In this document: in pieces, positions 6,490-57,967 of the stretch | How positions within the stretch are numbered: position 1 is the stretch's first letter | How the letters are laid out: each line of letters begins with the position of its first letter | Assembly: GCF_001625215.2 (NCBI RefSeq) | Contig: NC_030381.2 | Location: 41,786,689-41,850,688 of the forward strand | DNA from: Daucus carota subsp. sativus | Lineage: Eukaryota; Streptophyta; Magnoliopsida; Apiales; Apiaceae | Length of the DNA: 64,000 bases | Direction: 5' to 3' | The notes under the pieces: generated by a model | Seen by the model: the letters and a program-made list of their open reading frames with translations, nothing else | Told to the model about the DNA's origin: nothing | Databases searched by the model: none | Program-made: the position numbers and the translations under genes

Positions 6490-6800
6490 AGCAACATAGA
6501 CATCCACCTGGTCTTCTACATAAGCAGCGGAGACATTCCTCCGGTCTTCAACATAGGTAACAGTGACAGGCCTCTGGTCTTTAAAATAAGCATGTCCATG
6601 TGAAGGTTTTGATGGTTTGCCTTGCATTGATCAGGTCAAATGGCATGCCCAAATGGCAATATAGCCCTCTGTGATGACCAATGAAGTATACTCTTGTAAT
6701 TTGGAGGCAAATGGGCCTCTCCATGACATCTGCCGAGAGAGAGATAGTGGGTGTGTTACCAAGTAGAGCAACAGATTTAGGAGATGGTCGAGACACTTGA
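6490..6800 (-). pseudogene. Remnant of a Ty3/gypsy reverse transcriptase
   Basis: The minus-strand frame at 6581-6796 contains GLYCHLGMPFDLINARQT, a degraded form of the gypsy RT block YCYxVMPFGLKNAGATYQ. The flanking sequence is broken by stops, and no LTR or other polyprotein domain was found nearby. The adjoining 6490-6590 region repeats a CTGGTCTTn-ACATA-type unit three times. Confidence 0.6.
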
Positions 6801-7059
6801 CAAACACCCAGTTAGGTAGATAGGCTGAGTATCAATGAGACAATATTAAGAGTGGATATACATACATACATGTAATCATATTCTTTAAACTCAAGAGTTT
6901 ATGTATATCCTACAAGATGAATTAGGGTAATTTCTTGGTCTGATGAGTTTATTAAGAGACAATATAGGTGCGAGTTTTGTTTGAGAAGAGGAAGAGACTA
7001 AATAACTACTAATCGTGAGAATTTTCTTCTATTTTTTTAATAAAACTTAAATTATATAC

Positions 7060-8350: not shown

Positions 8351-9439
8351 TAGGTGTACCAATGGGAGGAATAACATCATCATTAAGAGGGGTTGACTAT
8401 GTGTAACCTAATTTTGTGTTGAATTCATAGGTGGGCGCTCCTGTCTTTGTAATGAGCTTTTATAATATCATCATTAAGAGGGGTTGAGTTCTTCAACATA
8501 AGACTACTATATATCAATTTATAGCTCATTTTCACTAGCCATTGATGGGTTAAATTGCAGTTGATAAATCTATATTCCTCATTCTTTGATAGCTTGATTT
8601 AGTCATTAATCTTCATTTCACTCGTATAGTTTACATGATTTAGAATGTTTACAAATTGACATCCTAACTACGATATATTGATAGATCAAAATCTTATCAG
8701 TTGATCACCTTGTCCTATCAACTACTAATAATGGAAAGTACCTATTTTGTTAAAACACCTTATCCGTTGACGGGTTATCTGATCAACGGATATTACAAAT
8801 AGTTTGCTATTTGTTGATTAGCTACACTTTGACAAATAAATTACACTAAGTGTTGACTTATCTTCAAGACTAACATGTTCATAACATAAACTTGTACATA
8901 AACCGTAGATGCAAGAATATTCTGCAGGTTAAAGGCTACAACAAATTATGTTCTTGGAAAGACATAACCCATGGCTTAAATACAAGGAGTGATATGAGGT
9001 TGTCTTAGGTAAAATTAAGAACTAAATGGAAAGAACTGTCTTGACGAATGCAAGGTCTTAAACTGGAGATCTAGTTAAAAAAATAAAAAAAATTAAATAG
9101 AATAAATATTCATCTGAAGACATGAGGATAGAGAAAAGATGAAACATGTTGAGCTTGAGATGAGAAACTCAAATGCATGTCAAGAAGAAATACGAAAGAT
9201 TATGAAAAGGTAGTGAACACTTTGACAACAAAAAAGACCAATCATTTTTTGGGCATATGTATCTTCTTGATTTCAGCATAGTGTGTGGATTTTGGATTTT
9301 TCGTTATCAAATTATCGAGCAATATTTGTGCAGAATAGCTTGTATTAGATTATGTGTAAAACACAATAAATTGATAAAAGTCTTTTTTCAGTTTGAAGTT
9401 GTTATATGTGACTACAAGGGGCATTTGCACGGGATCACA
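8351..9439. other. Intergenic, no gene recognised
   Basis: AT-rich, with no domain or termini. The last part may belong to the LINE remnant that becomes recognisable from about 9440. Confidence 0.35.
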
Positions 9440-28399: not shown

Positions 28400-29200
28400 A
28401 GTCAGAAGTAAACATCTTGTAATCAACAACACATATTTATTAGGGTTTGATACATTTAATAAGGTTAAGGTCATATTTGTAATATCTGCGAACTGCAGAA
28501 AGCAAAAATGAACTGTATTTAGCAACACCAAGCCTAAGCATAAGCAGACACACGGCTGAAAAAGGCCAATCAGAGTAGGGAATCAAACACGAGGCTCAAC
28601 CTGACTTAGATTAATCTTGATTCCAAATACAATCACCAAACTCGAGAAAGGGGTTTGAATTCAAAAATGAATGTCGAGGGTGACTTTATCATAATTGGTT
28701 GAAAGACAAGGACGGGTTGTAGTCCTTTTAGTTCACATGTTCGTTGATTAGCTTCAACCAGGTTTACAAAATGACACAGATCCTTTACAACTAGTTTACC
28801 CGGCAGTGCTAAAACAAATATAAAAATCAATAAAAGGAGTTCTACAATGCCCACTACGATTCATAAACACTTTGCAAGAAAAGAGACTTCGGAATATAAC
28901 AGGGGTCAAACAAATATGAAGACAATGAAGTCAGGTCAAAGATCTAAGTTCTAATTGAGGACTCTCCTTCAAAAATTTGTTCCCGACTTGTTATCAGAAG
29001 ATAGTGGTCATCCTTACATAGACAAGCATTCGCCCTCAATACATACATTCATTATAATCTCACCAGCCTAATAAACAACATTATAAACATCCGACCATAC
29101 TTATAACAATGAAATAGGAAAGCATATAAATAGCACTGGTATGGTGGTGCCACTGAATCTCATCTCCTAATAGAAAAGAATCAGGGAGCCGTTGAAAATC
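28400..29200. repeat. Tandem, truncated copy of the GRP2/CSP 3' flank
   Basis: Blocks at 28860-29150 repeat those at 30290-30600 in the same orientation, e.g. AAACAAATATGAAGACAATG against AAACAAACATGAAGACAATG, and TACATACATTCAT-like then ATAATCTCA. The copy ends before any gene sequence. This indicates an extra, gene-less duplication of the locus. Confidence 0.6.
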
Positions 29201-29619: not shown

Positions 29620-30945
29620 AAATGAAACCAAAAGGCTGAAGAAGTTGAAGATCAGCCACAAGGCTCACCTCGATTTAAACTGATCTGGATTCCAAACATG
29701 ACCACCAAACTCGAAAAAGAGATTTTGGAATTCAAAAACGTATATTGGTGTGCCTATCATATATTGGTTGAAAGAGATACTGAAAAACAATAAGGACGGG
29801 TTTTGGTCACTCAGATTTACAAACGATTTTGCACAGCCAATGTGTGAAAAACAGAGCTTATATAGAAAGTAGACGATGCAAAAGTGGGAAAATTGATTCA
29901 TAACCAATAAAGATTTTGAGAACTCAAAACATGGTCATCTTTATAATCAGACTAAGCATTAGTTTTGAGTCGACAAAGAACTAAAATCAATATTTGCAAC
30001 ACTGACCCTGAATGCATTGTGTTCGGAAACTTCAAATAAACATGGTCACCATTAGAACTTGAAAAAACCAACACCTTATACCTTCAAAGTAGTATACCAG
30101 CAACTAAAAAGAAACAAAAATAAACCTAAAACCAAAATATTTGACAGGAAAAAAACAATTCAGACCCGTCATACTAAACCATTACAGAGCCTTAAGCATA
30201 AAGCTCCCATCAACTTTAAAGCCCAATTAAAAAAGAGTTCTAAGAGAAGAATATTGACAGAAATACCTACGAGGGGAGGGTCACTGGTATTCATGGACAC
30301 ATTGCAAGCAAAGAGACTTTCGAAAACAACAGGGCTGAAACAAACATGAAGACAATGCAGAGCAGTCCAAGATCTGAGTTCTAATTGAGAACTCTACTTC
30401 AAAAATCTGTTCTAGTCATGTATCAGAATACCTTAGTCATCTTCAGGATCATCAGAGAATGCATTTACTTGACAAGCATTCGTACCAATACATACATACA
30501 TACATCATAATCTCATCAGCAGCTTAATAAATAACATCATTAACATCAGATAATAATAATAACAATAACAATAATGAAAAAAGAAAAGAGAGCACGTTAT
30601 AAAGAGCACCACTGAGTGTTGTCATCAGCTTAATTCCACACATCCATTCATTCATGAGCATATTAACAATAATGAGAAACGAAAAGCATAATAATAGACA
30701 ACACTGAGTAAATCCGAAAGAGAACAAGCATCACACAGTTGATTGATAAACCAAACCACCAAAAACCATCTGAAATCCTTAAAAAAGTTTAAACCTACAT
30801 AATAATAATCCTTAATTAATCAAAAGACCAAGAGTCGCACCAGGATAGGAGGATTAAGATTAATTAACAGTAAAGAAAGCGAGAGAGCAAAATGCATCAA
30901 CACGGAAGCACATATTACCCCATCGCAGCAGCACAACCCCGAAAC
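29620..30945 (-). other. 3' UTR and downstream flank of the left GRP2/CSP gene
   Basis: The proximal part (about 30590-30945) mirrors 32855-33230 almost base for base, including the 3' UTR. Beyond that the match is clear but diverged. The small open frames at 30059-30349 and 30524-30727 have counterparts on the other arm only as repeat shadows. Confidence 0.5.
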
Positions 30946-31542
30946 CTAACGGTTGGAATTAGGACAGTCCCTGGCGAAATGGCCGTCCTCACCACACTGA
31001 TAGCAGCCACCTCCGCCGCCGCCGCCACGGCCCCCACCACGTCCTCCACCACGACCACCTCCATAGCCACCGCCTCCGCCATAGCCGCCGCCACCACCTC
31101 CATAGCCTCCACCGCCTCCGCCATTGTCGCAATCCCTCGCCATATGACCATTCTCCCCACACTTGTAGCAGCCTCCGCCGCCACCGCCGCCATAACCGCC
31201 ACCACCACCATATCCGCCGCCGCCACCACCGTAGCCGCCTCCGCCACCACCATAGCCGCCGCCGCCTCTACCACCGCCGCCGCCGCCTCCCCTTCCACTT
31301 CCCTGGACAGAAGCACCATCTGGGCCAGTGACATCAACGGCCTTGGTCCTGCCATCGTTGCCATTCTCGATGACAAACTCAACCGACTCCCCTTCAGCGA
31401 GGCTGCGAAACCCATCAGACTTGATGGAAGATTGATGAACAAACAGATCCTCACCGCCTTCGTCAGGGGTGATGAATCCAAAGCCCTTGGTGTCATTGAA
31501 CCACTTGACTGAACCCTTCAAACGGCTGCCATCTTCACCCAT
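30946..31542 (-). CDS. GRP2: Cold-shock-domain glycine-rich protein with two CCHC zinc knuckles (left copy)
   Basis: Single exon, 198 aa. The cold-shock domain (about 8-73) carries RNP1 (KGFGFI, 19-24) and RNP2 (LFVHQ, 33-37). A Gly-rich region with GGYGG repeats surrounds two CCHC knuckles: [14 protein letters not shown] (125-138) and [14 protein letters not shown] (180-193). This matches the two-knuckle plant CSP/GRP2 class (Arabidopsis CSP2/GRP2 and CSP4/GRP2b, about 200 aa). The family binds single-stranded nucleic acids and acts as an RNA chaperone in cold response, flowering and seed development, in nucleus and cytoplasm. The ATG at 31542 begins [10 protein letters not shown]; the frame upstream stays open for four codons without another ATG. 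The protein differs from the right copy only at residue 62 (Asn here, Ser there). It is transcribed away from the palindrome centre. Confidence 0.93.
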
Positions 31543-32257
31543 CTTTTGATACAACTTAAAACAGACACAACACGAGATTGATAATAAAAACCCTAAACCC
31601 CCAAATGTAGTATTGTGCCTCTTTCTTTGCTCCTGTGTCTTTATTTATACACCAAATGCGATTGTTGTGTTTATGGGCCCCACGTCACTATTCTAGTGGA
31701 CCGACTCTTCATCTTTTGTTGGACTCATGTTCCGATATTTCAGTCCATGTGTCTTGGGCCTCTACGGTGCAGTCCGGTCCATGTTTATGGCCTTTTTACG
31801 GTCTCTCGATTCGACCTATTCTGTCTCTCCTTTTTTCCACGTAGATTCCATCCGATTCTAAATAAGTTGTATTAGATAAGAGGTATTGTATTGACGGTGA
31901 TTTTCAAATCTCGCGGAACAGGATGTGATACAACTTATTTAGAATCGGACTGAATCTACGTGAAAAAAAAGAGAGATAGAATAGGTCGAGTCGAGCGACC
32001 GTAAAAAGGCCATAAACATGGACCGGACTGCACCACAGAGGCCCAAGACACATGGACTGAAATATCGGAACATGAGTCCAACAAAAGATGAAGAGTCAGT
32101 CCACTAGCATACTGACGTGGGGCCCATAAACACAACCATCGCATTTGGTGTATAAATAAAGACACAGGAGCAGAGAAAGAGGCACAATACTACATTTGGG
32201 GGTTTAGGGTTTTTATTATCAATCTCGTGTTGTGTCTGTTTTAAGTTGTATCAAAAG
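31543..32257. promoter_or_regulatory. Mirrored divergent promoter of the GRP2/CSP pair
   Basis: 715 bp separate the two start codons, and the two halves are reverse complements apart from a 55-bp spacer (31873-31927). Each half has a TATAAATA box (minus-strand copy at about 31641-31649; plus copy at 32151-32158), a site II TGGGCC next to CCACGTCA (31674-31687 on the left; mirrored near 32115-32125), and AAACCCTAAACCC-type telo boxes in the leader near 31588-31602 and 32198-32212. The leaders are thus about 70-90 nt. Both genes should share regulation and respond as growth-type genes. Confidence 0.7.
31873..31927. other. Non-palindromic spacer at the centre of the inverted repeat
   Basis: The arms match up to GTTGTAT on the left (ends 31872) and from ATACAAC on the right (starts 31928). 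The 55 bases between show no self-complementarity that I can see. Confidence 0.6.
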
Positions 32258-32854
32258 ATGGGTGAAGATGGCAGCCGTTTGAAGGGTTCAGTCAAGTGGT
32301 TCAATGACACCAAGGGCTTTGGATTCATCACCCCTGACGAAGGCGGTGAGGATCTGTTTGTTCATCAATCTTCCATCAAGTCTGATGGGTTTCGCAGCCT
32401 CGCTGAAGGGGAGTCGGTTGAGTTTGTCATCGAGAATGGCAGTGATGGCAGGACCAAGGCCGTTGATGTCACTGGCCCAGATGGTGCTTCTGTCCAGGGA
32501 AGTGGTAGGGGCGGCGGCGGAGGCGGTGGTAGAGGCGGCGGAGGCTATGGCGGTGGTGGAGGAGGCTATGGTGGTGGCGGCGGAGGCTATGGTGGCGGTG
32601 GAGGTTATGGAGGCGGCGGCGGTGGAGGCTGCTACAAGTGTGGGGAGAATGGGCATATGGCGAGGGATTGCGACAATGGCGGAGGCGGTGGAGGCTATGG
32701 AGGTGGTGGCGGCGGCTATGGCGGCGGCGGTGGCTATGGAGGTGGTCGTGGTGGAGGACGTGGTGGGGGCCGTGGCGGCGGCGGCGGAGGTGGCTGCTAT
32801 CAGTGTGGTGAGGACGGCCATTTCGCCAGGGACTGTCCTAATTCCAACCGTTAG
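32258..32854 (+). CDS. GRP2: Cold-shock-domain glycine-rich protein with two CCHC zinc knuckles (right copy)
   Basis: Single exon, 198 aa, with the same architecture as the left copy: cold-shock domain with KGFGFI and LFVHQ, GGYGG-rich linker, and CCHC knuckles at 125-138 and 180-193. Only residue 62 differs (Ser). At DNA level the two genes differ mainly at third positions of glycine codons, which points to purifying selection on the protein. The start is the ATG at 32258, about 100 bases after the TATAAATA box. The 3' UTR (32855 to about 33080) is almost the same as that of the left gene. Which copy is ancestral cannot be told from this window. Confidence 0.93.
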
Positions 32855-33079
32855 GTTTCGGGATTGTGCTGCAGCTGCGATGGGGTAATATGTGCTTCCG
32901 TGTTGATGCATTTTGCTCTGTCGCTTTCTTTACTGTTAATTAATCTTAAACCTCCTATCCTGGTGCGCGACTCTTGGTCTTTTGATTAATTAAGGATTAT
33001 TATTATTGTGTAGGCTTAAACTTTTTTAAGGATTTCAGATGATGGTTTTTGGTGGTTTGGTTTATCAATCAACTGTGTG

Positions 33080-35427
33080 ATGCTTGTTCTGTTTCGGATT
33101 TACTCCTGTTGTCTATTATTATGCTCTTCGTTTCTCATTATTGTTAATATGGTGATGAGTGAATGGATGTGTGGAATTAAGCTGATGACAACACTCAGTG
33201 GTGCTCTTTATAATGTGCTCTCTTATCTTTTTTCTGTCTCATTATTATTGTCATTGGATGTTCAAAAGCTTGTTCATTATTAAGCTGCTGATGAGATTAT
33301 GATGAATGTATGTATGTATTGGTATGAATGATTGTCTACATAATAGATAATACTAAATACTGAATCTCGTGATTCTAAAGATGACTTTGACTCCTGTATA
33401 CTTATAACATGACCAGAACAAATTTTGTAAGGAGAGTCCTTGGTTAGAACCATGATTTTTGACCGCAATTCATTGTCTTGATGTTTGTTTGAGCCTTGCT
33501 GTTGCAGTCTTGCAGAAGTCTCTTTTCTTGTAAAGTGTCTAGGAGAATACAACCCTCCCCTTGTAGGTATTTCCTTCAACATCCATCTCATTGGACTATG
33601 TTGTAATTGGGGTTAAAGTTGACGGGAGCTTTATGCTTAAGGCTCTTTGATGGTTTAGTATGACGGGTCTTAATGGTTTTTTTTCCTGTGAAATATGTTT
33701 GTTTTTGGTTTATTAGTGTTTCTTTTTAGCTGTTCCTGTTCTGATTTCTTTAAATCAATTTTCTCATGTGCATAGTGATATAATCTATGTAAAGTTTCAA
33801 AATATAAAGGCATTGAGGATTAACATAGTAGGATGATGAGTTTGTTTGTCTGATACTAGTAGTTTCACCTGATAATAAATATGCCCTTTTCTGACACATC
33901 TCGTGATTTTGGTTGTGTGTTGATTCAAGATCAGCCTGAAACCAGTTGAGCATTATGTTTCATCCTCAATCCTGATTGTTCTTTTCACCCTCAGTGGTTT
34001 CTGCAAGTTTATTTGCTATTGAGCATGTTGGTTTTAGTTAAAGTTAAGCTCATTATGTCTACAATATCAAATATCCCATGTTCTAGTTATGTTACGGTTA
34101 ATTTGAAGTTTCAATAGCCAAATGCATTGATTGTCAATGTAGCAAAATTTGATCTTATTTGTTTGACACCAGTGCTTCATCTGATTACAAAGATGGTCAT
34201 GTTTTGTTACCTCTTTTAAAACAAACGATTAGGAGTTCTCAAATTCATTAAAAGTGTCGATTGTATCTCACGCACTAGTGTTTCCGCTTCTATTTGAGAT
34301 TTGTTCTTCACACATATGCAGCAAAATCAGTTCTAAACCTTAGTGACTACTGACTACAATCCATCCTCATTGTTTCTTAAAAGTTCTTTTAACTAATATA
34401 TGACAAACCCACCCTCATCATCCATATTTGAATTTTTAAAAGTCTTCCTTTAGTGCGGTTGTAATGTTTGGAATCATATTTGTAAGCTCTGTTTTCCCCA
34501 TATCTGCACCGACTGGCCAACCATCATTTTTCTTGGGAGAATATTGTGGTTGTTTTGTTCCTTTTATAGTTAAACCGAAATTTCAAAGATTTTATAGTTC
34601 TGCACGAAGTGACAATGTTATTTTGCATAGCTACTCATCTTCAGCTACATAAACTTGAAACTTCTTGCAAGAGTTTGGTTGTGTGTTGAGACAGGATCCC
34701 TCTGAATCCAGTTGAGCCTTATTTTGATAATTTGATTGTCCTTTTCAGCCTTGTGCCCATATGCGTTACGCATTGTGATGGTTTTGGATTGTTTTGCTTC
34801 TAATAAATTGGGGTGTCTTGAGAAATATTTTCAACCATAGTACTTGTAAACACCTACTGAATTCAGAGGAAAATAACCTTTAGTGGTTTCTGCAAGTTTA
34901 TTTGCTATTGAACATGTTGGATTTAGTTAACATTAGTATTTGATATACTAACCCTGAACATACTGTTTTGAATTCTATAACCCCTTTCTCTAGTTTGGTT
35001 TGTGTTGTTTCAAGATAACTCAAAATCCAGTTGAGCCTTATGTCAGATATTCAATTTTGATCGTCATTTTCTGTCTTGTGCCTGCATATATGCCTTTGGC
35101 TTTGTGATGGTTTTGGACTCATTTTATTTTACCTCGTGTTCCTGAATGAATTGGGTGGTCTTGAAAACTATCTTTAACCGTAGTCGTGATGCCCACCTAC
35201 AGGTTTGCATGTTGCAATGTTCTCCTCCAATGTAATTCTGTGCTCCAACCTGTCTGACTTGTAAATGTCACCATCTTGTTGCTTGTCAAGATGATGTATT
35301 GCTTCTTTAAACTACAGATATTAAATCGTCGTATTATGGCTATACAGTTATTACCTCTTGTAATACCATTATATAATTATCAAAATTCATATATTATTGT
35401 ATTCTGTATCCAATTCCTGATCCCTAA
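33080..35427 (+). other. Downstream flank of the right GRP2/CSP gene, no second gene recognised
   Basis: Made of the decaying repeat units of the right arm. No domain-bearing frame was found. The small open frames at 33077-33283 and 33280-33591 are shadows of repeats shared with the left arm. Confidence 0.45.
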
Positions 35428-43100: not shown

Positions 43101-44475
43101 CATGAACTGAAATGATGGTCAGCTCCATTAACTAAAGCACTCCTACATATAATTAACAGTCTCTTTCATTTACAAACATCATCATACAAGACTTGCACTT
43201 TTGGCTGCTGAAATGGCCAGCCAAAACCAAGGGCTTGTAAAGATCATCAAAGTAATGACATTGTTATGCTATAGATTTAAGTTACAGCATGACAGGCCTG
43301 TATGGATTATCAAAAAGGAAACCAAGAACATTAGCTTTAGCATGGCAATAGACAGCTTTTATAACAGTTTGCTTGCATTTTTGAATGTGCTGTGGATTCA
43401 AATTGAAGTTAGCTTCAGTTTATTGCATTAAAGTGATGAGGTTCCTGCTTCATTAAACTCATTTTTCTCATTGCTAGTCAGCAAAGTAACTAGATGACAA
43501 CTGAGACTGGTGCCTGGTCCTGTTTTGTTTCGTTTTTTGGTGAAAAAAGTTTATGCTTAGTTTGTCTCTGACCCCCAAACTGTCTAATTGTTTTGGTAAC
43601 TAAAAACAAATTGTACATTTGATTTGAGCCATGTCTCAGTAATCTTAATTCTCATAGAAGTTTGCACTTCTTTGATATAGCATCACAATGAGGATTAAGT
43701 GAGATAAAGGAAATCTACCGAAAATATGTAGAGATTTTAGAATAGCATGAAGAAACGAGGCCAGGAATAGAGATGTATAAGATCATTGCAAATATTAAAG
43801 AAAACAAAAGCAAAAATGAGTTTTCGAGTGACATACATCACTATGTACCCCAGAAATGGAATTTCAAGCATAATTTTTGCGCGACTAAGCCCAAAACTTT
43901 TTTTATAATTGCATTTTTTCTGTGATAAACTGGGGCGCATTGACCTTGAGCATTGAGTGGTAAGGTCATGTTCATTTGGCTAAGTTGTTATTATCAAGCA
44001 TGTCATATTTCTAAGAACCTCTTTTGTAGGCTCTATATTTTTCACAGTTGTGACTTCCAAAGGGTCTCCAGTGTGCTCCAATAAGATTCAATTGAGTATT
44101 TTCCACTTTCAAACTCCGATCGGCATAAGACGGAGGCAGTAGAGGACTAAAGGTAGAGCAGCGGCCAGTTAAGAGTAACAGGAAGCAAACTAGTGAAGTA
44201 CACTAGATCGTAAATAAAACTAGTGAAGTACTGGGCTACTGGTGGACTGGACTTCAAAATTCAAGTTGGGCCATATGAAATTATTGTAATGATAACCGTA
44301 ATGTGTAAGCCAAAATCTGTAAATATATCTATATATATAAAATTTATTGTTCTTAAATAAATTTATATATAATTTAATTCGGTTCGGTTCAATTAAGTTT
44401 GTATCTGGTTTAGAAAAATTTAAAACAAATCGCCACGATATCATTGATTTGGTTTTTATTGAGTTTAGTTATTAA
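40186..44475. other. Long intergenic region upstream of LAX2, no gene recognised
   Basis: No exon, RNA gene or complete transposon could be supported. At about 41713-41840 short inverted words (GAGAACCAAT against ATTGGTTCTC, with GAGAA/TTCTC repeats outside) suggest a tiny MITE of about 130 bp. The remaining open frames are short and lack domains. Confidence 0.4.
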
Positions 44476-45823
44476 CTAGTTGTGAAGCCGCGCGTTGCGA
44501 CGGCCTATAAAAATTATATTAATGATCAATATTAATATTGGTAGAATGTAATAATTTTGTGACTGTCTATAAAAAGCATATTAATGATCCAAAATTAATA
44601 TTTGTAGGATAAAATAAATTTTATATTATAAATATCTTGATGTAATACTAATACTAATATATAAAATTGCAAAATTGGACTATAATTCATAGTGAAAAAA
44701 CTGAAAATAAATTTCTACACATGATTAACAATTTAAAGCACGACGAATCTTAATTTTTTTTTTTAAGTAATCATGTTCCTACATTATCACCTTCCTCCAA
44801 TATTTTTGGATTGATTGTGCACAAAAACATCTAAGTTAAATCTGAGATAACGGTCTATAACTACCCTTGCTTGTAACAATAGTACTGTCGTCCCTTAAAA
44901 GTTGCTTGAACGGAGAATACAGATAATGCATGAATAATATTTTCCTGTGTACAAAATAAATCATATAAAAATTAACAACAACAAACATGTCTGATGAACA
45001 AAACAAATACTATAAAAGAATAACCAACAAACAAACATCACTAATAGTTAATTTATTGATATCATCCATCAATATCATGTTAAGACTATATTTTTCTCCC
45101 ATGTTTGGATTTGTCGACTCCCACATAGCGGTCTATAACTACGTTTGTTTGCAACAACCTTTATTATTTTTTTAATACCGTATAAATAGCCTTCACTTAT
45201 CGTTGCAGAAGAACGGCACCACCGAGTTAGAAATCGAGCAAGAAAACTATCACTAAAACTATCACTAGAGAGAGGTAGAGTTGTGGTATTGAGGGAGAGT
45301 AGGTTGTGTTTAGATGATCCAAAACCCTACAACCTACAAGGATATTTATAGGTCCAGAAAGATTTGTGTGCTACTCTTTCCAATAATTAAATAATCTGAA
45401 ACAAAATCAGATTAAAACTTTCAAGCTGCTATATTCCATAAATAATCTGAAACAAAATCAGATTCTGAAACTTGCTTCTAATATATCCGAAACTAAAAAA
45501 GGTAGTTCTAATTTTTGATATTTTTCATTCGAAAATTCCAAAAAATTAGAAAATTAGAACGGAGCGATGTGAGAGGCGCCACCTACACGCCCCTTCTCCT
45601 TTATATAAAAATAAATTCAAATTAAAACTTTCAAGCTACTATATTCCATAAATAATCTGAAACAAAATCAGATTCTGAAACTTGCTTCTAATATATCCGA
45701 AACTAAAAAAGGTAGTTCTAATTTTTGATATTTTTCATCCAAAAATTTCAGAAAATTAGAAAAATAGAACGGAGCGATGTGAGAGGCGACACCTACACGC
45801 CCCTCGCTTCTACTTTATATTGA
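44476..45823 (-). mobile_element. Helitron copy A (non-autonomous)
   Basis: On the minus strand the 5' end is A|TCAATATAAAGTAGAAGC and the 3' end is a GC-rich hairpin (around 44488-44505) followed by CAACTAG|T. The length is 1348 bp. The last 220 bases on the 5' side are duplicated in tandem (about 45400-45610 and 45615-45823), each ending with a GCGAGG...CCTTTATAT-type terminus. No Rep/helicase. The shared 62-codon frame (44987-45175) is conserved only as part of the repeat. Confidence 0.75.
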
Positions 45824-45825
45824 TA

Positions 45826-47104
45826 CTAGTTGAGAAGCCGCGCGTTGCGGCGGCCTATAAAAATATATTAATGATTTAATATTAATATTTGTAGAATAAA
45901 ATAATTTTATGACTGTCTATAAAAAGTATATTAATGTTTCAAAGTTAATATTTGTAGGATAAAATAAATTTATATTATAAAAATTTTGATGTAATACCAA
46001 TACTAATATATAAAATTGCAAAATTGGACGATAATTCATGGTGAAAAAATGAAAATAAATTTATACACGTAATTAACAATTTAAAGCATGACGAATCTTA
46101 ATTTTATTTGGTTTTTTTTTTTTGAAAAGTAATCATGTTCTTACATTGTCACCTTCCTCCAATTTTTTTGGATTGATTGTGCACAAAAACATAACTTAAA
46201 TATAACTACCCTCTTAAAAGTTGCTTGAACGGAGCAAACAGACAATGCATGAATAATTTTTTCATGTATACAAAGTAAATAATATAAAAATTAACAAAAA
46301 CAAACATGTCCGATGAACAAAATAAATATTATAAAAGAATAACCAACAAACATACATCACTAATAGTTAATTTATTGACATCAATCATCAATATCATGTC
46401 AAGACTATATTCTTTTCCCGTGTTTGGATTTGTCGACTCCAATATAACAGTCTATAACTACATTTGCTTGCAACAACCTTTACTGTACAAACAGCCTTCA
46501 ATTATCGTTGCAGAAAAACGACACCTCCGAGTTAGAATTCGAGCAAGAGAAAAGTATTTCTATTTTTTGATATTTTCCATCATAAAATTTCAAAAAATTA
46601 GAAAAATAGAACGAAGCGATGTGAGAGGCGCCACCTACACGCCCCTCGCTTCTCCTTTAAAAATCGAGTAAGAGAACTATCAGGTAGGTTTGTGGCATTG
46701 AGAGATGAGGTTGTGTTTAGATGATTCAAAACCCTACGATCTATACGGGTATTTATAGGTGCAGAGAGACTTGTTTGCTACTCTTTACCATAATTAAATA
46801 ATCTAAACAAAATCAGATTAAAATTTTCAATCTACTATATTCCATAAATAATATGTCTTTCTCATAATTAAATAATCTGAAACAAAATCAGATTAAAACT
46901 TTCAAGCTACTATATTTCATAAATAATCCGAAACAAAATCAGATTCTGAAACTTGCTTCTAATATACCCGAAACTGAAAAAGGTAGTTCTAATTTTTGAT
47001 ATTGATTTCATCCAAAAATTTCAGAAAATTAGAAAAATAGAACGGAGCGGTGTGAGAGGCGCCACCTATACGCCCCTCGCTTCTCCTTTATATAAGTATA
47101 TTGA
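45826..47104 (-). mobile_element. Helitron copy B, head-to-tail with copy A
   Basis: On the minus strand it starts A|TCAATATACTTATATAAAGG and ends with hairpin GCCGC...GCGGC and CTCAACTAG|T. The length is 1279 bp, with clear identity to copy A along its length. The 3' end of this copy is separated from the 5' end of copy A by only two bases (TA at 45824-45825). Confidence 0.75.
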
Positions 47105-50344: not shown

Positions 50345-50553
50345 TAAGGGAACAAAAGTTTAAAAAGGAAGAAAGCGCAAAACCATTTATTTTAAATATG
50401 AATTTCTAATTCTTGGCCTTGAAAATGTAACATAAGAAAACAAAACAAAAGCAGAAAAGCAAAGCATCCCCCATTTTCATCTTTCACCACCTTTCTCTCT
50501 TGAACATTCAAGAACCCCCCAAATAAATCAAACTCATCTCCCTGATTTCCCAG

Positions 50554-51440
50554 ATGGGTTTCTTTCTATTCACCATCGCAATCCTCGCCACTCTTTCATC
50601 TATCACAGGTACCACTCTTTCTCCACATGGTCTCTTGAATTCTCATTAATAATCATCATATTTGCTAACTGTGTCTTATGTATTTGTTGTTTGTGTGTAT
50701 TTGCAGAAGTGGACTCAACATCGTTTAGAATAGTTAACCAGTGTAGATACACTGTCTGGCCGGGAATTCTCACCGGCGCCGACCGGCCCGTCATAAACCC
50801 CACAGGGTTTGCTCTAAAACCCGGAAAATCGAAAACCATACCCGCCCCGAATTCTTGGTCGGGTCGGATCTGGGGTCGGACCCTTTGCTCCACTGATCGG
50901 ACTGGCAAGTTCGCTTGCCTCACCGCCGACTGTGGCTCCGGTAAAGTCGAGTGTCTCGGCAGTGGGGCCATCCCTCCTGCTAGTCTTGCTGAGTTCACTC
51001 TTAATGGTGACTCGGGTCTTGACTTTTATGATGTCAGCTTGGTTGATGGGTATAATTTGCCGATGCTGGTGGTTGCCAAAGGGGGGAAGAGTGGGGGGTG
51101 TGCTTCGACAGGGTGTTTGGCTGATTTGAACAATGGGTGTCCGATTGAGTTGAGGGTTTCGAGTGGGAAGAGAGGTGTGGCCTGTAAGAGTGCTTGTGAG
51201 GCTTTTGGCGATCCCATGTTTTGTTGTAGTGAGGGGTTCAATACTCCCGATACTTGTAGACCTTCGGTTTATGCTCAGTATTTTAAACATGCTTGTCCGA
51301 GATCTTATAGTTATGCTTATGATGATAAGACCAGTACTTTTACTTGTCGTGGTGCTGATTATATGATCATCTTTTGCCCGAAGCCTCACACAAGGTATCA
51401 ATTGATTCACCTCCTTTTAATGCTTAGTTATATGTTCTAG
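50554..51440 (+). CDS. Thaumatin-like protein (PR-5 family), 3' end uncertain
   Basis: Exon 1 (50554-50608) encodes the signal peptide MGFFLFTIAILATLSSIT. Exon 2 starts at 50707. The mature chain has all 16 cysteines of the thaumatin fold, with WPGILTG, DCGSGKVEC, LAEFTL and DFYDVSLVDGYN, and the acidic residues of the cleft. TLPs are secreted defence or developmental proteins, and some bind or cleave glucans. The open frame runs to a stop at 51440, but a GT donor at 51395 (CACAAG|GTATCA) sits at the same place and phase as the donor of the neighbouring paralogue. The true gene may therefore end in an unrecognised third exon; read through, it gives 262 aa. The paralogue lies about 6 kb downstream on the same strand. 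Confidence 0.88.
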
Positions 51441-56418: not shown

Positions 56419-57967
56419 ATGGATCTGTTGAAGCTCTTTCTTGCTCTTGCACTGCTTTCCAGAGGTAAATTTTTTCATATTTACAGGACTAATTCTTGCT
56501 AGCTAGCTTTATATTTGTCACATTTTTAATTAATTATTTCTTCAACTTGTTAATTACATTTGGTAAATGTATGCATAGGTACATTTGGAGCCACATTTAC
56601 ATTTGTAAACAGATGCGAGTACAAAGTCTGGCCCGGCATTCTTGCAAATGCAGGCACAGCCCCTCTCGAAAGCACCGGTTTTGAGCTAGCCCAGGACACT
56701 TCACGCTCTTTCCAAGCTCCAACCGGCTGGTCCGGCCGCTTCTGGGGTCGAACCGGCTGCAAATTCGACGGATCCGGTTCAGGCTCCTGCTCAACCGGAG
56801 ATTGTGGGTCAGGCCAAGTAGAATGCAACGGCGCCGGAGCTTCACCGCCGGCCACCCTAGCTGAGTTCACACTTGGGACCGGCAGTCAAGACTTCTATGA
56901 CGTCAGCTTGGTGGACGGGTACAACGTGGCCATGATAATCGAAGGGAGCGGCGGGTCGGGTATGTGCGCTTCGACCGGGTGCGTCACGGATCTGAACCGG
57001 CAATGCCCGGCTGAGTTGAGAGTGAGTGAGGGCGACGCGTGTAAGAGTGCGTGTGAAGCGTTCGGGAGTCCAGAGTACTGTTGTAGCGGCGCGTATAATA
57101 CACCGGCTACTTGTAAGCCGTCGGTTTATGCGGAGATGTTCAAGATGGCTTGTCCGAGATCTTACAGTTATGCTTATGATGATCCAACCAGCACGTTCAC
57201 TTGCACTGGCGCTGATTACACCGTCACGTTTTGCCCCAACATGCCTAGGTAACATATTTTATTTCTCCAAATTTTTTATGTCCAGTTTTGTAGAGAACCA
57301 TTCCCTCTAAAACCTTAAGGTGTTAGAGGAGGCCCCTTTATGGATCTTATGCTTATATTCAACACTCCCCCTCACTCGAAATCCCATTATTTGGGTTGAA
57401 GAGTGGATCACGGGCGCCCATCTTTGGAGCATAAATTGCCTTCGTGTCCATTTTAAATTGTGAGAATATTGGGGGTGGCAGGGGCTCGAACCCGAGACCT
57501 CCCGCAAACCTCGCTCTGATACCATGTAGAGAACCATTCCCTCTAAAACCTTAAGGTGTTAGAGGAGGCCCCTTTATGGATCTTATGCTTATATTCAACA
57601 AGTTTATCTTTTTTGAAAACAATTGTATATTGACATTATTGATGTGTACAGTCAAAAATCATCAAGAGAATCAGCACCAACAACCACCATTCCAACACCA
57701 ACAACAACAGTAGGTGACGCCACTCCTACAACAACAACAAATGGTGATGGGTCATCATCAGTCACGGGTGGTGATGCAGGGTTACAGTCAGGCACAATGG
57801 GTGGTTCGAGTACATCATCAGGGTCAGGAACTGATGGTGCAGTGATGGCTGATGATGGGTCATGGCTAGCTGGTTTGGCCATGGGTGACTCCACAAGGAG
57901 TAATCATTTGCATTTCACTTTACATTTTCTCTTTATTGCATTGTGTTGTTTCAGCTTTTTGTTGTAA
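56419..57967 (+). CDS. Thaumatin-like protein with predicted GPI-anchor tail
   Basis: Three exons: 56419-56464, 56579-57248 and 57652-57967, joined in frame, give 343 aa. The signal peptide is MDLLKLFLALALLSRGTFG. The thaumatin domain (about 22-240) has all 16 cysteines, WPGIL, LAEFTL and DFYDVSLVDGYN. Exon 3 adds a Ser/Thr/Gly-rich linker and a C-terminal hydrophobic end (FTLHFLFIALCCFSFLL) after a short hydrophilic stretch, the layout of a GPI-attachment signal. The protein is thus likely held at the outer face of the plasma membrane, unlike soluble PR-5 proteins; long-tailed TLPs of this type are known in plants. The intron before exon 3 carries a TRIM element (57289-57600). It is a tandem paralogue of the TLP gene at 50554. 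Confidence 0.92.
57289..57600 (-). mobile_element. Complete TRIM (miniature LTR retrotransposon) in a TLP intron
   Basis: Two identical 76-bp LTRs (57289-57364 and 57525-57600), which on the minus strand start TGTTGAATATAAGC and end TCTACA. Directly inside the 5' LTR on the minus strand is TGGTATCAGAGC, the primer-binding site complementary to initiator tRNA-Met. Before the 3' LTR is a purine tract (GAGTGAGGGGGAG). A perfect 5-bp target duplication AGTTT flanks it (57284-57288 and 57601-57605). It is 312 bp with no coding capacity. Confidence 0.92.

Follow-up and report, generated by a model that had tools for sequence, protein, structure and literature searches.

The window, meaning the whole 64,000-nt stretch of DNA that was analysed, corresponds to C1:41786689-41850688 of Daucus carota subsp. 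sativus (genome of 441 Mb in 11 contigs), and the gene content in and around these data is that of a plant (ALOG, thaumatin and a Ycf1-bearing plastid insert). It holds two divergently oriented genes, each encoding a 198-residue protein with a CSD and two zinc knuckles, which are embedded in an inverted repeat at approximately 30101-33732 that includes both genes and their 3' flanks. A BLAST self-match aligned 30104-33732 with 33729-30101 at 89% identity over 3692 columns (E=0), a further alignment of the whole repeat gave 88.9% over 3697 columns, and the longest ungapped arm pair returned by a repeat finder was 953 nt at 96%. Given the length and identity of these arms and the E value of the self-match, the mirror is far beyond chance. 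The total extent of the gene palindrome is 3.6 kb and its features, together with a flanking match, are as follows.

30101-33732, no strand: whole inverted repeat, arms and centre (BLAST self-match)
30101-30571, minus: left outer arm with old divergence (103 of 468 sites unlike the right arm)
30572-30945, minus: left inner 3' part, homogenised with the right arm (13 of 370 sites differ; outgroup test)
30946-31542, minus: left gene, CSD and two zinc knuckles, 198 aa (ORF, Pfam)
31543-31872, minus: left promoter and leader, with TATA box (TATAAATA) at 31642-31649, telo box (AAACCCTAA) at 31588-31596, TGGGCC at 31674-31679 and 31755-31760, and ACGTG at 31681 and 31838
31873-31879, no strand: seven bases between the left arm and the filler that match neither (junction alignment)
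31880-31931, no strand: putative plastid-type filler, agreeing with both C5:39522371-39522422 and C2:19387227-19387278 at 51 of 52 bases
31928-32257, plus: right promoter and leader, with TATA box at 32151-32158, telo box at 32204-32212, TGGGCC at 32040-32045 and 32121-32126, and ACGTG at 31958 and 32115
32258-32854, plus: right gene, CSD and two zinc knuckles, 198 aa (ORF, Pfam)
32855-33234, plus: right inner 3' part, homogenised with the left arm (arm alignment; outgroup test)
33235-33732, plus: right outer arm with old divergence (arm alignment)
28560-29156, minus: possible third copy of the 3' flank that lacks the gene, oriented as the left arm (pieces 28560-28706 and 28852-29156, 72-74% identical to 29630-29775 and 30282-30615)

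The mirrored promoters

The CDS coordinates place the start codons 715 bp apart, as the initial annotation of this locus had stated, and its description of two GRP2/CSP-type genes firing outward from mirrored promoters was borne out, as both genes are intact and diverging and their TATA boxes face outward. The promoter halves are indeed reverse complements around a 55-bp centre (31873-31927) when counted outward from the common ATACAACTT; via the ungapped extension of the repeat finder, the gap between the arms is 45 bp. The mirror is larger than the promoter halves described there, and whole genes and their 3' flanks lie within the repeat. Similarly, the "perfect mirror order" of the promoter elements holds for the motifs that we take to be TATA boxes, TGGGCC elements, telo boxes and ACGT cores, but it is not perfect at the level of individual bases, with differences at 15 of the 235 that lie between the start of the arm and the TATA box. 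Promoter motifs such as these mark genes for growth and translation. Their mirrored order is explained by the duplication of the whole gene, and nothing at the locus points to selection for mirrored promoters.

An ACCGAC core, presumably the cold-responsive DRE/CRT core, is confined to the left promoter (31700-31705), with ACTGAC at the corresponding site on the right. Its occurrence in the left promoter alone is explicable by chance, as at least one such core was present in 32% of 2000 mononucleotide shuffles. When the right promoter half was searched against the genome, the portion outside the spacer matched the left arm alone, at 96%. A mobile element as the carrier of the promoter was considered and rejected, as the six matches to 31878-32257 consisted of the two arms and four matches within the spacer part.

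The two genes and their family

Both reading frames are uninterrupted. The pair differs at 18 of 199 codons, 17 of them silently, and the sole replacement is N62S (Ka 0.002, Ks 0.13; NG86). Each protein has similarity to PF00313 (CSD; E values of 8.9e-27 and 1.3e-26) and two stretches with similarity to zf-CCHC (PF00098), so that CCHC knuckles set in Gly-rich sequence come after an N-terminal CSD, as in GRP2/CSP-type proteins, and in the PDB the best-matching sequence is 8tg0 ('Cold shock protein 2'). Judged from these sequence features, the genes are GRP2/CSP-type putative RNA chaperones. The AtGRP2/CSP2 family (PDB 8tg0; available text of PMC11602973) shares this layout of an N-terminal CSD and two CCHC knuckles within Gly-rich sequence, and in comparison with that family the carrot protein itself is unremarkable; it is the arrangement of the genes that is new.

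Among the 14 matches listed in a protein search, those at two other loci, C6:26.488 Mb (62%) and C5:18.789 Mb (58%), take in most of the protein, the remainder covering only the Gly-rich/knuckle part. The CSD of the C6 homolog is predicted from its protein match and its reading frame. No comparable palindrome is present at either homolog, the longest inverted matches within 9.9 kb around each being 48 and 47 bp. A thaumatin-family frame (8602-9288) lies 3 kb downstream of the C5 CSD homolog (L010:5001-5597). Two frames of this family also occur in the window close to the gene pair, at 50436-51440 and 56554-57252. This shared proximity suggests that the region of the C5 homolog and the window are related duplicated chromosome blocks.

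Weak homology extends past approximately 30.1 and 33.73 kb and was left out of the arms. Pieces around 35111-35425 in the right flank recur on C2, C4, C6 and C9 at 69-86%, which places a dispersed repeat in that flank, and the homology beyond the arms may therefore be, in part, dispersed repeat. Three control comparisons made beside the flank match at 28560-29156 gave no match, and this flank possibly hints at an older array of three copies. Elsewhere in the window, at 44470-47095, there is a cluster of direct repeats that are 86-95% alike, AT-rich and high in CpG observed/expected (1.09).

Divergence along the arms

Arm-to-arm differences number 47 in the 1301 aligned sites of the inner arms and 104 in the 469 of the outer arms. 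The jump in divergence is located near 30.57/33.24 kb, where placing a break gave a gain of 65.7 log units against 8.2 for the largest of 300 shuffles, and in a second alignment identity falls near 30.6/33.2 kb. This break is situated in the 3' flank, outside the CDS.

To polarise this contrast we employed as outgroup two 5'-truncated relatives, at C6:20.461 and C9:42.341 Mb, which hold the last 18 codons and the 3' flank and are near-identical to each other (6 of 419 sites differ), so that they are effectively one outgroup. The outgroup test covers the 3' part, the promoter being without an outgroup, and the C6 copy lacks 30262-30474. In the inner 3' part the left and right arms differ at 12 of 426 sites, while the arms differ from the outgroup at 70-74 of 373-378; the respective values for the outer part are 31 of 176 and 39-43 of 166-169, and for a middle piece, compared with C6 alone, 23 of 105 and 29 and 24 of 89. 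The left-right distance is thus 0.028 inside and 0.176 outside, whereas the outgroup distances are alike (0.19 inside, 0.23-0.26 outside). The Jukes-Cantor ratio of left-right to outgroup distance is 0.13 for the inner and 0.68 for the outer part, with raw-distance bootstrap intervals of 0.07-0.24 and 0.51-0.96, respectively, and with columns taken as independent the inner ratio equalled or exceeded the outer in 0 of 1000 replicates.

Local constraint would be expected to slow the outgroup comparison too, and the contrast in ratios therefore points to the inner arms having been converted or recopied. Arm divergence that is locally lowered relative to an outgroup, here effectively a single one, is what an arm-to-arm conversion palindrome should display. 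By this comparison of sequences, either gene conversion homogenised the inner arms or they were copied anew from one arm of an inverted duplication of greater age. Silent divergence within them is patchy. A run of 143 consecutive identical silent sites covers the leader and the CSD (permutation 0.0005), but in the first Gly block 14 of 34 Gly codons are unlike, versus 2 of 39 past the block (p 0.0004), and 15 of 41 third positions differ in the Gly block. A single event would be expected to leave silent divergence that is even along the inner arms, which agrees with neither the Gly block nor the identical stretch over leader and CSD; a single event is thus insufficient, and multiple tracts, or else a rearrangement of the Gly repeats, must be invoked. 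If substitution rates between 7e-9 and 1.5e-8 per site and year are assumed, the outer arms would be approximately 9-19 million years old and the inner arms approximately 1-5 million years old.

The truncated relatives, which comprise the gene tail and the 3' flank (L039:3631-4353 at C6:20.461 Mb; L040:3342-3757 and 6658-6825 at C9:42.341-42.344 Mb), sit in a longer unit that is common to C6 and C9 (96-99.7%). They may represent a fragment of the gene that was captured and later copied.

The plastid-type centre

The C5 insert that matches the filler runs on into tRNA-Asn(GUU) (trnN-GUU) and an open frame corresponding to the Ycf1 N-terminus (PF05758, E 1.3e-128), and a 330-base piece of it is matched 15 times in the nuclear genome, the spacer of the carrot palindrome included. 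Based on this nuclear insert with trnN-GUU and the start of ycf1, the spacer is judged to be plastid-type DNA, and its source may alternatively have been plastid-derived mitochondrial DNA. The tRNA-Asn(GUU) resembles tRNAs in 980 phage records, the eight matches listed being 82.7-89.5% identical and two of these annotated as tRNA-Asn, a likeness that indicates a bacterial-type tRNA. Prokaryote contigs gave 0 matches to a 77-base plastid-type pattern, searched for exactly, and likewise 0 to a 48-base tRNA-Asn piece, a result that is silent on plastid origin either way.

At the right junction the last four bases of the filler, ATAC (31928-31931), are common to the start of the right arm and constitute a 4-bp microhomology. 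There is no microhomology between arm and filler at the left junction, where the seven bases intervene. The spacer, which has a single mismatch among its 52 bases, seems to be of more recent date than the outer arms (P 0.009 or 0.034, depending on which of two estimates of outer divergence is used), and its age is consistent with that of the inner arms (P 0.48, 0.76), although this is a small-number argument on one substitution. The available portions of PMC6215612 and PMC7037861 describe organelle DNA as filler in end joining, and the carrot centre shares with the plastid break-repair filler described there a short plastid-type piece and a few bases of microhomology at one junction; it differs in that the carrot filler sits at the axis of a gene palindrome. 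Within the one open-licence library that was searched, no paper combining a gene palindrome with plastid filler was found.

Origin of the palindrome

Computation establishes an inverted duplication, unequal homogenisation along the arm, a plastid-type spacer and intact frames, and the divergent paralogs with reverse-complementary arms that include the promoters are those of a head-to-head inverted gene duplication. Neither the plastid-type spacer nor the homogenisation had been noted in the initial annotation. On balance we think it somewhat probable that this head-to-head inverted duplication of a GRP2/CSP-type gene underwent break repair that recopied the inner arm and was completed by end joining with plastid filler. 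An older inverted duplication or array, possibly of three copies given the match at 28560-29156, would have supplied the arms, and a double-strand break would have occurred upstream of one copy. The broken end would then have invaded the 3' flank of the other arm and copied through the gene and promoter, the free end would have been joined to the other end using a scrap of plastid DNA, and smaller conversion tracts would have followed. A single break-repair event would in this manner link the homogenisation and the filler. The outcome would be two intact genes, each with its own outward promoter, and a doubled dose of one RNA chaperone; we infer that both copies are expressed and that dosage is a consequence of the second copy. 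We take as support for break repair and conversion the finding in rice that conversion is highest between copies <5 kb apart (available text of PMC2277409). A more far-reaching version, which we advance only tentatively and would not ourselves bet on, is that one plastid-filled repair made a complete fresh head-to-head copy with its promoter in an older inverted array, the arms of which have been converting since. The locus would then be a self-refreshing palindrome, and a single antisense start would suffice to turn it into an siRNA source of the VIM4-VIM2 kind.

It is also possible, though in our view rather doubtful, that the palindrome is old and its arms have been kept alike by ordinary recurrent gene conversion, the plastid piece being an unrelated insertion into the spacer. 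The outgroup and mosaic evidence would serve such a history equally, and plastid-type inserts are common in the genome, as the 15 matches to one 330-base query indicate. Against it are the placement of the filler precisely on the axis, the microhomology that it shares with the start of the arm and its apparent age, which fits the inner arms; for these reasons we favour break repair, without considering the matter settled. The position of the divergence break in the 3' flank, outside the CDS, might be expected of a recent simple inverted duplication whose outer part seems older merely through lack of constraint, but the outgroup ratio rules against this and the similar outgroup distances inside and outside contradict it, making it a very unlikely history. 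An assembly artefact, either a fold-back read or misjoined paralogs, we consider more improbable still. A chimeric read would give near-identical arms, and a fold-back is hence disfavoured by the pattern of arm divergence (47/1301 inner, 104/469 outer). Also difficult to reconcile with an artefact are the mostly silent nature of the CDS differences, the approximately 22% difference between the outer arms, the foreign (plastid-type) sequence in the spacer and the presence of both arms within one 56.3-Mb contig.

Hairpin formation, silencing and activity

The initial annotation had raised the prospect of a cruciform at the centre, and of transcripts crossing it that fold into a hairpin and feed siRNA silencing of the family. 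The 201-nt strand at the centre folds at -61.4 kcal/mol versus -19.1 (sd 3.07; z -13.8) for shuffles, but this strong snap-back is due to the palindrome and the fold restates it. A non-palindromic loop of 55 bp should disfavour a cruciform. Since both TATA boxes face outward, transcripts begun there exit the palindrome and cannot form the hairpin; hairpin RNA needs a transcript begun inside one gene that runs back through the centre. Loss of promoters or starts that cross the centre, as in VIM4-VIM2 or PAI-type loci, is not what we found, both TATA boxes being retained and outward, with the starts inferred from these boxes. Silencing of the family via siRNAs is consequently not indicated.

That the palindrome is a silencing locus, in which antisense transcription over the centre produces hairpin RNA and siRNAs against the family, is in our estimation unlikely. 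The arms and spacer length (55 bp vs 50 bp) do resemble those of the siRNA-making head-to-head VIM4-VIM2 palindrome of Arabidopsis Cvi-0, and the central DNA strand snaps back strongly, but the carrot promoters are intact and outward and the start codons are separated by 715 bp rather than ~96 bp (VIM4-VIM2 data from the available text of PMC13213937). Moreover, the frames are intact with low Ka/Ks, and promoter and CDS are without CpG depletion. Other family members have only 58-62% protein identity to the pair, so any siRNAs would be predicted to target chiefly the two genes of the pair. CpG observed/expected is 0.85 in the promoter region and 0.94 and 0.86 in the CDSs, in comparison to 0.60 for the window; it is low in the 3' flanks (0.48, 0.44) and high in the left flank (0.83), and the CpG test is a weak one. 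Together with the intact frames and the Ka of 0.002 and Ks of 0.13, these CpG levels would fit active genes.

Relationship to known palindromes

Head-to-head duplicates with mirrored intergenic sequence and conversion of palindrome arms in plants are already known, from what the available texts of PMC12845241 and PMC7023750, respectively, describe. A close counterpart, VIM4-VIM2 in Arabidopsis thaliana Cvi-0, has start codons ~96 bp apart and a 50-bp non-palindromic centre, siRNAs arise from it, a crossing transcript begun inside the gene is reported in Cvi-0, and CDS identity is 99.86% in Cvi-0 and 92.22% in Col-0 (available text of PMC13213937). Like the carrot pair, it is a head-to-head paralog palindrome with a non-palindromic centre of ~50 bp that is attributed to an old intrachromosomal inverted duplication later homogenised. 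Unlike the carrot pair, which keeps both promoters (715 bp) and has a plastid-type centre, VIM4-VIM2 lost its intergenic region by deletion, according to the same text.

The Arabidopsis IAN (AIG1-like) duplicates are likewise head-to-head tandem copies with reverse-complementary intergenic sequence. Their authors propose crossing-over between inverted repeats, in contrast to the organelle-filled end joining and copying that we propose for carrot, and no filler is mentioned in the available text (PMC12845241). The palindromes of the willow W chromosome resemble the carrot locus in having old arms with stretches held alike by conversion, but there are two consecutive palindromes that together span ~200 kb in a non-recombining region (available text of PMC7023750), while the carrot palindrome is 3.6 kb. 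In the available main text of two cotton surveys (PMC10934078, PMC6594650), neither 'head-to-head' nor 'inverted' occurs.

If the break-repair interpretation is right, the carrot locus would be a base-pair-level record of the making and refreshing of a head-to-head plant duplicate, with homologous copying on one side and organelle-filled end joining on the other. It would also be a counterpart to VIM4-VIM2, namely a head-to-head gene palindrome with intact promoters in which silencing is unexpected. The analysis additionally corrects two tempting readings of such a locus, those of an assembly error and of an siRNA trap.

The initial annotation held that such mirrored promoters are rarely kept in plant genomes, a claim that was set against 200 kb of this genome. 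Within this small sample of 20 random 10-kb pieces, there were no inverted repeats with arms of at least 500 bp; the longest separate arms were approximately 230 bp and the longest fold-back was 418 bp in all. Beside the gene fragment on C6, at L039:5312-6306, there is a 995-bp fold-back with arms of approximately 0.5 kb that are 86% identical, and palindromes as such are therefore not unique in this genome.
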